The translations under genes were made by a program, and so were the position numbers. From Candidatus Galligastranaerophilus intestinavium (lineage in GTDB: Bacteria; Cyanobacteriota; Vampirovibrionia; Gastranaerophilales; Gastranaerophilaceae), in assembly GCA_018716625.1 (NCBI GenBank), contig DVJQ01000073.1, positions 1 to 48,238 on the forward strand: a DNA stretch of 48,238 bases. The letters are read 5' to 3'. Below are positions 30,227 to 42,635 of the stretch, piece by piece. The notes beneath the pieces are model-generated. The model saw nothing but the letters and a program-made list of their open reading frames with translations, ran no database searches and was not told the origin of the DNA. Numbering within the stretch: position 1 is the first letter of the stretch; every line of letters begins with the position of its first letter.

Positions 30227-31117
30227 TTACATCCAGTCATTTACCTGATTTTTACTGAAATGTTTTATACATTTTGCACAGATGTTTGTGTCCAAAAATG
30301 TCCTTTTAGAATAATTTGACATATCAGAGCCTGACCTTGCGCGAAAATCATTTGATAGCGCAGGGCAGGAATATACGCCGTTTGCACTTAAAATGCGCGA
30401 GTTGTAACAGTCCAGTTTTTCAACATCAAAATCAAAACTCTCTATTGGCTCGCAGTTTGTATTTTTTTCAAAATAGGGCATAATTTTTAGGTTAATATTT
30501 TCAATTTCAAAATTATACTTTTTAAAAAGAGCATAAAAGCCTTCAAATAAGTCTTTTTGAGATTCCTGATAATAGTTGCAAACAGAAATAATCGGGTTAA
30601 ATTCATATTTTGCAAGATTTAAAATCGCACTCATAGCCTTTCTAAAACTGCCCCTGCCTCTTATCTCATCGTTTTTAAGCTCGTCAAAGTGATCTATACT
30701 TATCCTGTAAATTGTTTCAAAATTATTTTCATCGTCAATTTTTCTCAAAAAACGTGCCTTTTTATCATTTATCAAATACCCGTTTGACATAACGGTAACG
30801 TTTGAAAATTTTAAACACATTCTCAAAATGGTATTAAAATCAGGGTGCATAAGAGGCTCGCCCCCTGTTAAGTAGATGGAGCTTAATTTTTCACTCTTTG
30901 TTTGCAAAAGTGCCGCTTTTATTTTTTCAACAGGAATAAAGTCTTTTTCCTGTTTATAAGGATTTTTCTCGATGTAGCAGTGTTTACACTTTAAATTGCA
31001 TGCTTTATAACACAGCTCAAAAAACAAATTGTTCAACTCTTTCATCTCAACTTTTGGCGCAGCCATAAACATTTTTGCAAACATTTCACTTTGCACTTGA
31101 CCCTCAATATTTTGCAC
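30227..31117 (-). CDS. Radical SAM protein with C-terminal cysteine cluster
   Basis: 296 residues. The cluster motif CNLKCKHC (C40, C44, C47) is followed by YLTGGEPLMHP and the MSNGYLI strand, with a radical SAM barrel to about 230. The C-terminus carries further cysteines (YSCPAL, NICAKCIKH) reminiscent of a SPASM/twitch auxiliary cluster, so peptide or protein modification is possible. The GTG start at 31117 follows AGGAGA. No obvious substrate peptide adjoins; upstream is a 340-bp non-coding region with a candidate RNA. Confidence 0.8.
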   Translation of the reverse strand: MQNIEGQVQSEMFAKMFMAAPKVEMKELNNLFFELCYKACNLKCKHCYIEKNPYKQEKDFIPVEKIKAALLQTKSEKLSSIYLTGGEPLMHPDFNTILRMCLKFSNVTVMSNGYLINDKKARFLRKIDDENNFETIYRISIDHFDELKNDEIRGRGSFRKAMSAILNLAKYEFNPIISVCNYYQESQKDLFEGFYALFKKYNFEIENINLKIMPYFEKNTNCEPIESFDFDVEKLDCYNSRILSANGVYSCPALSNDFRARSGSDMSNYSKRTFLDTNICAKCIKHFSKNQVNDWM

Positions 31118-38267: not shown

Positions 38268-38300
38268 AAAAAACCCGCCATTTAGGCGGGTTTAATTTTT
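38268..38300. terminator. Bidirectional terminator
   Basis: AAACCCGCC-ATTTA-GGCGGGTTT with T-rich tracts on both strands (TTTAATTTTTT forward, TTTTTTGTT reverse) serves the XRE gene and the convergent transglycosylase. Confidence 0.9.
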
Positions 38301-38800
38301 TAAAGAGTATCTGAAACTACGCTTTTAATTTCAGGATCAGCTTTTAGAGCATTATATTCCTGTTTAATTCTTGAAATAAAAGCTTTTGTTTCTTTAAAAG
38401 GAGGTACGCCTTTATACCTTGCAACATTGCCGGGGCCTGCATTGTAGGCTGCAAGAGCCAAGTCCATAGAACCGTATTTTTTGTACATCATTTGATAGTA
38501 CATAATGCCGCCTTTAATGTTTTCATGTTGCACATGCGGGTTAACGCCCAGCCTGCGTGCGGTATCGGGCATAAGTTGAAATAAACCCACAGCACCTGAG
38601 GGGTTTTTCTTATTCGGGTTAAAATTAGATTCAAGTTTTGCAATACTTAGCGCAACAAACGGGTCTACGCCCATTTTAAGCGCTGTTTGGGCTATTGCTT
38701 TTTGAACTTCTTGTGGCGATTGGGCTGCCTGTGCTTTGTCTAATGAACCTAAAAATAGGCAAAAACTCATCAGCAAAGCTGCCATTAGCTTTTTCGTCAT
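38300..38800 (-). CDS. Lytic transglycosylase, SLT/LT-type
   Basis: Cleaves peptidoglycan glycan strands in the periplasm. A signal peptide (residues 1-25, ending DKAQA) is followed by the Slt70-type catalytic domain. Catalytic E57 is in IAKLESNFNP; GAVGLFQLMPDTA and ALAAYNAGPGNVARY are also present. 166 residues, a minimal single-domain enzyme with no LysM. GAGGATGAAACC precedes the ATG. Confidence 0.93.
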   Translation of the reverse strand: MTKKLMAALLMSFCLFLGSLDKAQAAQSPQEVQKAIAQTALKMGVDPFVALSIAKLESNFNPNKKNPSGAVGLFQLMPDTARRLGVNPHVQHENIKGGIMYYQMMYKKYGSMDLALAAYNAGPGNVARYKGVPPFKETKAFISRIKQEYNALKADPEIKSVVSDTL

Positions 38801-38907
38801 GGTTTCATCCTCATTATTCTCTTTTTTTTAAACAGGGTAAAAATCGAGTTTTGCTTACTTACTACACATACTATTCGCGAAACCGACATAACCCTAGTTT
38901 CAAATCT

Positions 38908-38935
38908 ACTATACTATAAAAATAAAATTTTGCAA
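38908..38935 (-). promoter_or_regulatory. Promoter of the lytic transglycosylase gene
   Basis: On the minus strand TTGCAA (38935-38930), a 16-bp spacer and TATAGT (38913-38908) lie about 100 bases before the ATG. The rest of 38801-39107 contains an AATATA-GT-TATATT dyad near 39005-39020 and the tRNA promoter, and no convincing gene. Confidence 0.5.
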
Positions 38936-39054
38936 CCCCTAATTTTTTTTGCATATGCCCATTTACCTTGTGGCACTTAGGATACAGCTATTGCTACAAA
39001 TATAGAATATAGTTATATTTTGACATAAATTTTACAAAATTCAGTCATTTTGTC

Positions 39055-39083
39055 TTGATTGTTTTAAGTATTTTTGATAGGAT
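39055..39083 (+). promoter_or_regulatory. Promoter of tRNA-Ser
   Basis: TTGATT, a 17-bp spacer and TAGGAT put transcription start near 39090, about 18 bases before the mature tRNA. Confidence 0.55.
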
Positions 39084-39107
39084 TTTATTATTGAAAATTT
39101 TATATTT

Positions 39108-39196
39108 GGAGAAATGGCCGAGTGGCTGAAGGCGGCACCCTGCTAAGGTGTTATGTGGAGTAATCTGCATCGAGGGTTCGAATCCCTCTTTCTCCG
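39108..39196 (+). tRNA. tRNA-Ser(GCU)
   Basis: 89 nt. The acceptor GGAGAAA pairs with TTTCTCC, discriminator G. D-arm GCCGAGTGGCTGAAGGC; anticodon loop CTGCTAA (anticodon GCT) on a GCACC/GGTGT stem; a long variable arm typical of class II; T-arm GAGGGTTCGAATCCCTC. CCA is not encoded. It decodes AGC/AGU. Confidence 0.96.
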
Positions 39197-39227
39197 ATTT
39201 TTGTTTGATTAATTAAAATTTAAACAT

Positions 39228-39263
39228 AAAAAAATACTCCCTAAATTCAGAGAGTATTTTTTT
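39228..39263 (+). terminator. Terminator after tRNA-Ser
   Basis: AAATACTC and GAGTATTT form an 8-bp stem followed by TTTTTTT. It may also be read from the opposite strand to end the repeat-protein transcript. Confidence 0.8.
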
Positions 39264-39298
39264 GCAAATTAAATTAAAATACATGCAGCAGTTTTAAA

Positions 39299-40453
39299 TT
39301 ACTGGCCGCCGTCTTCATAGGCGATAAATGTTGTAGCATTAATGCTGCCAAAATCATTGTCATCAGGCAATGTTAATTCAGGGAAATCATCCTGAGGTTT
39401 GTCAACTTCCGGCTGTTCGTCACAACCGCCATCGTTATTGTTGTCATCATCTACGCTTGGCGTATCTTCGTTATTGTTATCGTCATCTACGCTTGGTACA
39501 TCAACATTATCATCGCCGCAGCTTGGAGGTGTAACGTCCTGACCGCCGTCTTCGCATCTTGTAGCGGTAATATTTCCATCATCACCTGCCGAGCCGCCGC
39601 ACTCAAGCATTGCAAGAGTTACAGCACCGCCGCCCCAGTGGTGGTGTCCCCAGTGGTGGTGTCCCCAAAATGGCTTATCGCCCCAGCTTGGTTTATCGCA
39701 ATCGGGTTTATCGCCCCAGCTTGGTCTGTCAGAATCGCTGCCGCCTTCTTCGTACATTGCTTTTGTGCTTATTTGTCCGTCTAATGACGAACCGCCCTCT
39801 TCAAGCATTGCAAGCGTCATTATTCCGTCGTTTAAGTTAGTTTCACCTGATGTATCATCGCCTGTGCTGCCGCCTATAGAATCGCTGCCGCCTTCTTCGT
39901 ACATTGCTTTTGTGCTTATTTGTCCGTCTAATGACGAACCGCCCTCTTCAAGCATTGCAAGCGTCATTATTCCATCGTTAGGATCAGAATCGCCGCCGCT
40001 TTCACCAAGTGTCTTTGTAACATTTGTACTGTCATCTGAAGAAGAGCTTCCGCCTTCTTCTTTAACGGCTGTTGTCGCAGAATTACTGTCATCTCCCCAA
40101 CTTGGCTTATCACAAACGCTTCCGCCTTCTTCATAAGTTGCATATGTTGTAGCCGAGTTGTGCCAACCAAAAATGCCGTTAAAAATACCATTAAAAATAT
40201 TTGAACCAAAATCACAATCAGACCACAAAGTAGATACTGAACACCTTGCACCATCGTTATAATTCACAAAAGTATCATAACTGTCACTTTCGCTTGTATT
40301 TTTCTCAAAACATTTATTTGTATTTGAGCTTACGGATTTATTTGTTTGGCTTGTCGAATTTGTATAGTCTTCACTTGCGGCAGAACTTCCTGTTGTGCCA
40401 TTTACATTTTTCTTAAAAAAACTGTCACCAAAACATCCGTTTAGCCAAAACAT
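39299..40453 (-). CDS. Putative multi-core graspetide precursor (T-x4-E-E-G-G repeat protein)
   Basis: 384 residues with no known family. Ten modules fit T-x4-E-[E/D/S/C]-G-G-[S/Q/D], with the Thr at residues 103, 127, 146, 164, 181, 213, 230, 279, 296 and 375. Examples are TYATYEEGGS, TLAMLEEGGS, TKAMYEEGGS and TFIAYEDGGQ, the last ending the protein. A degenerate copy, TFVNYNDGA, begins at 61. Linkers are Ser/Asp/Asn-rich, with PSWGD repeats and a HHHWGHHHW segment at 265-273. The leader-like first 100 residues lack a signal peptide. GGAGCAAAAGGCG precedes the ATG. The ATP-grasp gene is divergent. The alternative is an acidic surface protein. Confidence 0.6.
   Translation of the reverse strand: MFWLNGCFGDSFFKKNVNGTTGSSAASEDYTNSTSQTNKSVSSNTNKCFEKNTSESDSYDTFVNYNDGARCSVSTLWSDCDFGSNIFNGIFNGIFGWHNSATTYATYEEGGSVCDKPSWGDDSNSATTAVKEEGGSSSSDDSTNVTKTLGESGGDSDPNDGIMTLAMLEEGGSSLDGQISTKAMYEEGGSDSIGGSTGDDTSGETNLNDGIMTLAMLEEGGSSLDGQISTKAMYEEGGSDSDRPSWGDKPDCDKPSWGDKPFWGHHHWGHHHWGGGAVTLAMLECGGSAGDDGNITATRCEDGGQDVTPPSCGDDNVDVPSVDDDNNNEDTPSVDDDNNNDGGCDEQPEVDKPQDDFPELTLPDDNDFGSINATTFIAYEDGGQ
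39731..39973. repeat. Exact 96-bp direct repeat inside the repeat-protein gene
   Basis: Bases 39731-39826 and 39878-39973 are identical over 96 bp, 147 bp (49 codons) apart, and keep the reading frame. Each copy encodes the adjacent TLAMLEEGG and TKAMYEEGGSDS modules. This is a recent in-frame duplication or a product of recombination. Confidence 0.9.
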
Positions 40454-40538
40454 CGCCTTTTGCTCCTTTTTTCAATCTATGTCATCATGCTAACAATCGG
40501 AAATTTTTATCATTCCTTTAGAAAAAATTATATAATTG

Positions 40539-40560
40539 TTACAATTTGAAATAATTGTAA
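40539..40560. promoter_or_regulatory. Perfect inverted repeat between precursor and ATP-grasp genes
   Basis: TTACAATT-TGAAAT-AATTGTAA: 8-bp perfect arms covering the -35 of the ATP-grasp promoter. The left arm extended as GTTACAAT also matches an HLR1 half-site. It could coordinate both divergent genes. Confidence 0.5.
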
Positions 40561-40574
40561 AAATATTTTAATAT
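40546..40574 (+). promoter_or_regulatory. Promoter of the ATP-grasp gene
   Basis: TTGAAA (40546-40551), a 17-bp spacer and TAATAT (40569-40574), about 17 bases before the ATG. On the opposite strand a TATAAT at about 40530-40535 may serve the precursor gene. Confidence 0.55.
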
Positions 40575-40590
40575 TAAACAGAGGTGCAAA

Positions 40591-41466
40591 ATGATTATTA
40601 TTATTGGAAGCAACGAAGAATATCACGCAAAATATATATTTGAAAAATTACAACAGGAAAATACACCGGCAAAATATTTTGACAGTCGCAAATACCCCAT
40701 ATTCAGTTGGTCACCTGATGGTGTCGGAGATTATATAATTCTTGAAAATGAAAAAATATATTTAAAAGATATAAGCGGAATTTACTGGAGATGGTACTAT
40801 GGCGTGACTTTTAGTACATCAGAGATAGTATACAGAGAAAAAGTTTCGGCACTTGAGAGTATGTTGTGCGCCCTGGAACCCGTAAGCTGGAACTCCCTTC
40901 AAGCGGTAGAGCTGCACAGAAAAAAAGGACTGCAAAGCAAAATTATGCAAAACAACGGCATAAGAATCCCAAAAACAACCGTAACGGATGACAAAGATAT
41001 GCTCGAGAAATTTTATCTTGAAAATGACAAAAATGTTATTTTCAAACCTGTAAGGGGCGGAGCATATACAAAGAAACTGACGGAACAAGATCTTGAAAGA
41101 AAAGAGTCCTTGAAAAATTGCCCTTGCCAGCTGCAAGAGTGTATAGAGGGGCTTGACATAAGAGTATATGCTTTTGAAACAGGTGAAATATACGCAGGAG
41201 AAATACACGCACAAAGTTTAGACTTTAGAGCAGACACAAATGCTAAAATAAACAAACATCAACTGCCTGAAAGCGTTCAAAAAGATTGCTTAAAAATTTT
41301 AAAAATTTTAAATTTAAAATACTCGGGAATAGACATAAGGCTGAAAGAAAACGGGGAATATGTTTTTATCGAGGCAAACCCTGCTCCTATGTTCGTTTAT
41401 TTTGAAAATATGACAGGTTATGAAATAACAAATACTTTAATAAGGAATTTAAAAAACAATCATTAA
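40591..41466 (+). CDS. RimK/MvdD-like ATP-grasp ligase
   Basis: 291 residues. The N-terminal domain (IIIIGSNEEYHAKYI, SGIYWRWYYG) resembles the pre-ATP-grasp domain of graspetide synthetases. The ATP-grasp core follows: VIFKPVRGGAYTK (about 149-161), CQLQECIEGLDIRVY, YSGIDIRLKE and FIEANPAPMFVYFENMTGY. The last segment closely parallels the NPxGxxxWxE-TG ending of microviridin-type ligases. These enzymes activate side-chain carboxylates to form esters or amides. GAGG precedes the ATG. Divergent from the repeat protein, its likely substrate. Glutamate-ligase activity is an alternative. Confidence 0.75.
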   Translation: MIIIIGSNEEYHAKYIFEKLQQENTPAKYFDSRKYPIFSWSPDGVGDYIILENEKIYLKDISGIYWRWYYGVTFSTSEIVYREKVSALESMLCALEPVSWNSLQAVELHRKKGLQSKIMQNNGIRIPKTTVTDDKDMLEKFYLENDKNVIFKPVRGGAYTKKLTEQDLERKESLKNCPCQLQECIEGLDIRVYAFETGEIYAGEIHAQSLDFRADTNAKINKHQLPESVQKDCLKILKILNLKYSGIDIRLKENGEYVFIEANPAPMFVYFENMTGYEITNTLIRNLKNNH

Positions 41467-41474
41467 TCATCAAT

Positions 41475-42635
41475 ATGTATTTTAACTACAGTGAAAAAGA
41501 AAAAGAGTATTTAAAAAACAAAGACAAAAGGCTTTGCGCGATTATAGAAAAAACAGGGCACATAAAAAGAGAGATTGACCCTGATTTATTTAGTGCAATT
41601 GTACACCAAATTGTTGCACAACAAATTTCAACAAAAGCTCAGGCAACAATATGGCAAAGGCTGAACGATACACTTGGAAAAATCAATTCGCAAACAATTT
41701 TAAAAACATCTGATGAAACACTAAAATCTCTTGGTGTATCAAAAAGAAAAATTGAATATATAAAAGAGCTTGCAAAAAAAGTAAATGACAAGGAGCTTGA
41801 TATTCAAGCACTTTGGCAAAAAACAGACGAGCAGGTAATATCAGAGCTTATAAAACTAAGGGGCATAGGGGTGTGGACGGCTCAAATGCTTTTAATATTT
41901 TGCATGCAGCGCAAAAATGTCTTTAGTTATGATGATTTGGGAATTCAAAAAGGCATAAAAATTCTCTACAATCACAAAAAAATTACAAAAGAACTCTTTG
42001 AAAAATACAAAAAACGCTTTAGCCCCTATTGTTCCGTTGCAAGCCTCTATTTTTGGGCTGTTTCGGAGGCTCAAACAGATAAAACCAAAAACACCTCAGC
42101 GCAAAAAAATAAACAAAAATACTATAAAACTCAATATTTATCACCCCTTGGGGAATACACCCTCGTATCTGACGGCAAAAATCTCCTCGGAGTATGGCTT
42201 TTGGGTCAAAAGTACTATCTTGAAGGAATTTTAGGGGAAATAGTCGAAAATAATGAACTTGAAATTTTTAACAAAACAAAAAAATGGCTGGATGAATATT
42301 TTAACAACAAAAATCCTAAAATTTCAGAATTGAAATTAAACCCAAAAGGAAGCGACTTCAGACAGGAAGTATGGAAAATTCTTCGCAAAATCCCCTATGG
42401 CACAACAATCAGCTATGGTGAAATTGCAAAAAAAATTGCAAATAAAAAAGGGGTTAAAACCTTTTGTGCACAAGCAATAGGAAATGCAGTAGGACACAAC
42501 CCTATATCAATTATTATACCCTGTCATAGGGTAGTTGGCGCAAAAGGCTCTCTTTGCGGATATTCCTGCGGGATAGAAAACAAAATTAAACTTTTAAAAT
42601 TTGAAGGAGTCAATATTTCAAATTTTCATATCTGA
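41475..42635 (+). CDS. Fused DNA-3-methyladenine glycosylase and O6-methylguanine-DNA methyltransferase
   Basis: 386 residues combining two alkylation-repair activities. Residues about 1-195 are an HhH-GPD glycosylase (AlkA type): hairpin LIKLRGIGVWTAQMLLIF and catalytic Asp in FSYDDLGIQKG. After a Lys/Gln/Asn linker (about 200-215), a methyltransferase follows with FRQEVWKILRKIPYGTTISYGEIAK and the acceptor cysteine in IIPCHRVVG. Both active sites look intact. It starts nine bases after the ATP-grasp gene with no clear ribosome-binding site, so it could share that transcript. Confidence 0.9.
   Translation: MYFNYSEKEKEYLKNKDKRLCAIIEKTGHIKREIDPDLFSAIVHQIVAQQISTKAQATIWQRLNDTLGKINSQTILKTSDETLKSLGVSKRKIEYIKELAKKVNDKELDIQALWQKTDEQVISELIKLRGIGVWTAQMLLIFCMQRKNVFSYDDLGIQKGIKILYNHKKITKELFEKYKKRFSPYCSVASLYFWAVSEAQTDKTKNTSAQKNKQKYYKTQYLSPLGEYTLVSDGKNLLGVWLLGQKYYLEGILGEIVENNELEIFNKTKKWLDEYFNNKNPKISELKLNPKGSDFRQEVWKILRKIPYGTTISYGEIAKKIANKKGVKTFCAQAIGNAVGHNPISIIIPCHRVVGAKGSLCGYSCGIENKIKLLKFEGVNISNFHI

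Follow-up and report, generated by a model that had tools for sequence, protein, structure and literature searches.

A predicted two-gene graspetide system with a ten-module precursor in a Gastranaerophilales genome

Two divergent genes in the 48,238-nucleotide stretch of DNA analysed here (hereafter, the window) very probably constitute a graspetide precursor system, composed of a 384-aa protein built from repeated core modules and an adjacent ATP-grasp enzyme. Genomic evidence supports the graspetide reading well; the cross-links are predicted from the sequences. The pair would represent a minimal graspetide system with a multi-core precursor. The enzyme would be recruited via a single leader-like motif (TFVNY, aa 61–65) and, working through the modules one after another, would use ATP to activate the side chains of Glu/Asp for linkage to those of Thr/Ser. 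The host genome belongs, judging by its named relatives, to the Candidatus Gastranaerophilales group, a non-photosynthetic lineage of cyanobacteria from the gut.

The precursor gene and its modules

The preliminary description had placed an open reading frame of 384 codons at positions 39299–40453 without stating its strand. This frame lies on the minus strand, starts with ATG and is preceded by a Shine-Dalgarno-like sequence (AAAGGAG), while stops abound on the plus strand. The predicted protein (calculated mass 40.5 kDa, pI 4.05) is rich in Asp, Gly and Ser and has no match in Pfam or NCBIfam, in which no family is named for such precursors. The TxKYPSD core is absent from its translation. 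The features of the two genes are as follows:

39299–40453, minus strand: predicted multi-core precursor, 384 aa (open reading frame and modules)
40247–40312, minus strand: leader-like block CFEKNTSESDSYDTFVNYNDGA, aa 48–69, its core shared with the nearest precursors, such as that of L068 (YIEKNPDDNTFVDYKDGA)
40259–40273, minus strand: TFVNY, aa 61–65, proposed ATP-grasp recognition site ([TSP]-F-[VI]-x-[FY] motif)
40121–40150, minus strand: module 1 by motif, TTYATYEEGG, possible two-ring
40049–40078, minus strand: module 2 by motif, ATTAVKEEGG, pairing ambiguous
39992–40021, minus strand: module 3 by motif, VTKTLGESGG, only the inner ring expected
39938–39967, minus strand: module 4 by motif, MTLAMLEEGG, without outer donor
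39887–39916, minus strand: module 5 by motif, STKAMYEEGG, possible two-ring
39791–39820, minus strand: module 6 by motif, MTLAMLEEGG, without outer donor
39740–39769, minus strand: module 7 by motif, STKAMYEEGG, possible two-ring
39593–39622, minus strand: module 8 by motif, VTLAMLECGG, only the inner ring expected
39542–39571, minus strand: module 9 by motif, ITATRCEDGG, without outer donor
39305–39334, minus strand: module 10 by motif, TTFIAYEDGG, possible two-ring, with a single Gln between it and the stop
40454–40590, no strand: intergenic region of 137 bp between the divergent genes, with a Shine-Dalgarno-like sequence for each gene and sigma-70-like boxes (matches to consensus only)
40591–41466, plus strand: predicted ATP-grasp macrocyclase, 291 aa, PsnB-like (TIGR04184, 2.6e-29; PsnB 7drm, 3e-26; structural model)

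As first described, the protein contains ten T-x4-E-[E/D/S/C]-G-G modules, with exactly four residues between Thr and Glu in all of them (YATY, TAVK, KTLG, LAML, KAMY, LAML, KAMY, LAML, ATRC and FIAY in modules 1–10). When the protein was shuffled 20,000 times, T-x4-E-x-G-G appeared 0.036 times on average, with a maximum of two. Since a search for E-x-G-G that made no use of the Thr also returned Thr at −5 in 10/10 sites, with no other position fixed, the Thr–Glu spacing is real rather than a selection effect; together with the shuffles, this rules out a chance origin of the modules. Module 10 is the C-terminal element, a single residue separating it from the stop (EDGGQ). Two details of the preliminary description required adjustment. 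The first is the GG-[S/Q] tail, which is not constant, Asp following in one module (GGD). The likeness it had drawn to the TTxxxxEE core of plesiocin is apt, the modules being of that kind; the strict form is found only in module 1 and three more read [T/S]-T-x4-E-[E/D], TTxxxxEE being the majority form in the relatives. The second is the residue preceding the Thr, of which no use had been made; it matters because it occupies the donor position of the outer ring. The acid is present without a preceding Thr or Ser in three modules (two M..E, one I..D), and the pairing in one more, A..E, is ambiguous.

Ahead of their first module, 19 of 21 precursors carry a [TSP]-F-[VI]-x-[FY] motif (1.6 expected from shuffles), Pro occurring in some only; in the window it appears after an N-terminal extension. 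It resembles the graspetide leader motif PFFARFL/Phhx(1,2)h (PMC8939145), and we propose that it may serve in recognition by the ATP-grasp. No leader peptidase or exporter linked to the two-gene unit was found, and a search of the host genome returned no C39 peptidase. The module GG was considered as a C39 cleavage site, but this is disfavoured: cyanobacterial precursors with the same core have a separate leader VTGG, their module GG lies within the core, and no C39 enzyme was found.

The ATP-grasp enzyme and its co-occurrence with the modules

The ATP-grasp gene starts 137 bp from the precursor gene, in the opposite direction, behind its own Shine-Dalgarno-like sequence. Its product of 291 codons matches the graspetide-maturase profiles TIGR04184 (2.6e-29), TIGR04185 (1.5e-27) and TIGR04187 (2.2e-25), all under the curated cut-offs; for the first two, the scores of 102 and 96 bits compare with equivalog cut-offs of 475 and 425. 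The nearest sequence in the PDB is PsnB (7drm, 3e-26), the plesiocin macrocyclase, ahead of MdnC, CdnC, MdnB and AMdnB. An AlphaFold model (25 relatives in the alignment; pLDDT 92.4) also had PsnB as its nearest Foldseek match (2e-25), and VIA-align superposed the two with a Z of 29.3 over 279 residues (rmsd 2.4 Å), other graspetide ligases lagging by a few Z units and RimK scoring not much lower. Identity to PsnB is about 26%, and the family-invariant residues K112, K152, D248, E261 and N263 align with PsnB residues. By sequence and predicted structure, the enzyme is a member of the PsnB/MdnC fold family in which the ATP-grasp residues are kept.

The boundaries of graspetide groups derive from a similarity network. 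In a tree, MdnB, MdnC and CdnC group apart from the clade of the window's enzyme; PsnB forms a long branch placed elsewhere with weak support, its position being unsure. The enzymes of photosynthetic cyanobacteria and Gastranaerophilales come together, the support for their exact order being modest (82–92%).

The preliminary description had suggested looking for homologous precursors beside ATP-grasp genes, with T-x4-E-E-G-G conserved; such precursors exist in Gastranaerophilales. A related ATP-grasp is encoded in 25 of 383 genomes of this order and a DNA pattern for TT-x4-EEGG in 20, although one of these (G083) was discarded, its lone match being a chance one in a 40-aa frame. With G083 removed and only the close enzyme clade counted, each set comprised 19 genomes, and arrays and enzyme coincided in 18/19 of each (383 genomes; Fisher 1.1e-28). 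The only genome with repeats and no ATP-grasp, a combination named beforehand as one that would speak against a graspetide, is G353, an 84%-complete genome in which a contig end truncates the array; in the sole genome that has the enzyme but lacks the strict pattern, G010, the modules are degenerate. The two genes are adjacent in most genomes, about 13 kb apart in G041 and on different contigs in G035 and G265. The flanking genes differ between genera while the two-gene arrangement is kept; the precursor–enzyme pair is therefore the unit. A phage origin was rejected, no relative being found in viral contigs, as was a plasmid origin, the plasmid relatives being distant (at most 26% identity among the matches listed).

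The precursors of the family measure about 70–550 aa and carry 1 to 16 modules, mostly of the form TT-[MKQYLE]-A-[LVIM]-G-EE-GG. The linkers between modules are unrelated, consisting of amphipathic-looking helices, Pro-rich runs or, in the genus of the window, His/Trp-rich runs. In the precursor of the nearest relative (L065, 5622–6782, minus strand) most modules have been lost and tandem repeats of CDKPSWGKPD and HHWGHHHWGG gained. A sister ATP-grasp clade from the Gastranaerophilales genus g49 (L090, 7151–7726, plus strand; L074, 6264–6839, plus strand) lies beside a 192-aa precursor with four T-x-A-[YF]-P-S-D-D-A modules, microviridin-like in appearance (TxKYPSD) but without the Lys, and a leader-like YFLDY. 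Outside the order, in Vampirovibrionia, a 228-aa precursor (L107, 366–1049, plus strand) mixes ITRALHEGG and TTLALGEEG, with Arg at the P1-like position.

Further observations concern the neighbourhood. The gene after that of the ATP-grasp (window, 41475–42635, plus strand) encodes a fusion of an AlkA-like glycosylase with an O6-methylguanine methyltransferase; its equivalent is broken by stops in G010 and split into separate frames in G002. On the other side, within 38300–40453, a tRNA-Ser (39107–39197) separates the precursor from a lytic transglycosylase gene; since in G010 some 17 kb lie between this transglycosylase and the ATP-grasp, the stretch beside the tRNA-Ser looks like a variable island. 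A radical SAM protein like peptide maturases is encoded 8 kb away (window, 30227–31117, minus strand), with no link to the two-gene system seen.

Ring pairing and the nature of the product

Plesiocin carries two esters per repeat (PMC9484694, PMC12291112). If its nested pairs apply here, the residue before the Thr and that after the Glu make up the outer ring. Over 144 modules, both outer donor and acceptor are present in 106, neither in 23 and only one in 15, a covariation with a within-family permutation p of 4e-5 and the strongest among the 21 pairs of variable positions (z 6.9). For this test identical modules and near-identical precursors were collapsed and the data stratified by family, although some dependence due to duplication remains. 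Loss of the outer pair is often accompanied by a change of GG to GD. The joint loss of donor and acceptor is natural, if indirect, evidence consistent with outer ester pairing; the window's own modules obey the rule less well. In the proposed scheme, every module would carry an inner ester from Thr to the Glu five residues on, and a nested outer one, as in plesiocin, would form where Thr/Ser precedes the Thr and Glu/Asp follows the Glu. About 10 to 14 esters would be expected (15 if module 2 closes twice), i.e. a loss of 180 to 252 (270) Da.

The position directly after the ring Thr (x1) is the most variable of the module (3.22 bits; among others K, Y, Q, L, M and E), and a single precursor often mixes several x1 types. 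In microviridin, S2 is occupied by Thr4 and S1 by residue 5, which sets specificity (PMC7823629); plesiocin inhibits serine proteases, the more strongly the more of its motifs are cyclised (PMC13097080), and in 2022 the graspetides characterised by then were described as inhibitors of proteases (PMC8939145). We infer that x1 would act as P1. The variability of x1, the S1 residue of microviridin and the potency of plesiocin make a multi-headed serine-protease inhibitor the best inference, and by analogy the product is probably of this type, with a different P1-like residue per module. More tentatively, it might be a protein-sized graspetide, i.e. an ester-locked chain of hairpins presenting Y, T, K, L, K, L, K, L, A and F as P1 residues, which, without being cut, would inhibit gut proteases with multiple specificities and whose mixture of one- and two-ring modules would reflect selection, not decay.

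It is rather unlikely that the product, although a graspetide, is a structural or binding one, namely a long acidic chain to which side-chain esters lend stiffness. The great length of the chain, the varied Pro-rich, helical or His/Trp-rich linkers and the failure to find a peptidase or exporter linked to the unit would agree with such a role, as would the case of corallotide, a large graspetide with five repeats, no antibacterial activity and collagen-like properties (PMC13097080). However, inhibition agrees better with the hypervariability of the residue that follows the ring Thr and with the enzyme's kinship to the macrocyclase of a protease inhibitor, and the short single-module relatives (L070, L077 and L081) make little sense as scaffolds.

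Less probable still is that the system is real in the relatives while the precursor is decaying in the genus of the window, its protein being partly modified or non-functional. The Gly before the Glu is lost in 9/10 modules, the outer pairing is weak in the window, only four modules are recognisable in its closest relative, G010, and the enzyme is present in only 2 of the 15 genomes of the genus. The loosely kept outer pair may indeed indicate that modules in this genus are drifting. Against decay, the 384-codon frame is open, its ten inner T-x4-E pairs and the enzyme are intact, and both genes have good start signals. Finally, an unmodified acidic low-complexity repeat protein lying beside an ATP-grasp by coincidence, to which the Asp/Gly/Ser-rich composition, the pI and the empty Pfam and NCBIfam searches might point, is very improbable given the near-perfect co-occurrence of arrays and enzyme over 383 genomes despite varied neighbours, the common leader motif, the donor–acceptor covariation, and the same core in photosynthetic cyanobacteria with a classic double-Gly leader and the same enzyme type adjoining.

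Relation to known graspetides

The predicted graspetide system has its nearest described counterpart in plesiocin (PsnA2/PsnB, group 2), with which it shares a repeated hairpin core of the TTxxxxEE kind and a single ATP-grasp. Plesiocin has four repeats with two esters each (PMC12291112, PMC9484694), while there are 10 modules in the window and up to 16 in its relatives, many seemingly one-ring; the window also differs in its 384-aa precursor, unrelated linkers and a leader motif that comes after about 60 residues. A sequence search of the PDB did not return the PsnA2 peptide. The same core and GG tail occur in the TTLALGEEGG precursors of photosynthetic cyanobacteria (L097–L106), members of the same phylum, whose PsnB-like ATP-grasps adjoin the precursors, are 36–42% identical to that of the window and fall in the same region of the tree. 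In contrast, these precursors are frames of 76–135 residues with 1–4 modules and an HPFDL...VTGG-type leader, mostly in a same-strand operon; three that were tested had no NCBIfam or Pfam match above cut-off. The core is therefore not new in kind, and the earlier statement that no described graspetide has it was too strong.

Microviridin, AMdnA and chryseoviridin have the graspetide ATP-grasp logic in common with the system described here, from whose precursor the TxKYPSD core is absent; in microviridin P1 comes right after the ring Thr (PMC7823629), as proposed here for x1. CdnC makes both single and bicyclic rings, to go by the title of reference 20 in PMC8939145. Corallotide (group 15) is, like the window precursor, unusually large and made of repeated modules, but these are five KxxxD isopeptide repeats in about 22 kDa, with an oxygenase partner (PMC13097080). 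In the papers covered, the described multi-core cases have three units (AMdnA, with three cores in one precursor, PMC5934393; also thuringinin), four (plesiocin) or five (corallotide). Among open-licence papers, no useful match was found for graspetides of Gastranaerophilales or Melainabacteria or for GEEGG, although supplementary tables of large surveys may list these precursors. As far as searched, what is new is the number of modules (10–16), the mixture of apparent one- and two-ring modules in a chain of this length, the internal position of the leader and the occurrence in gut Gastranaerophilales.

These predictions would add an uncultured gut lineage to the hosts of graspetides, and would go far beyond the three to five modules of the characterised multi-core cases covered. 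With its natural variation among modules, the two-gene system may help to work out the rules of inner and outer ring closure, of leader position and of distributive catalysis over 10–16 cores.
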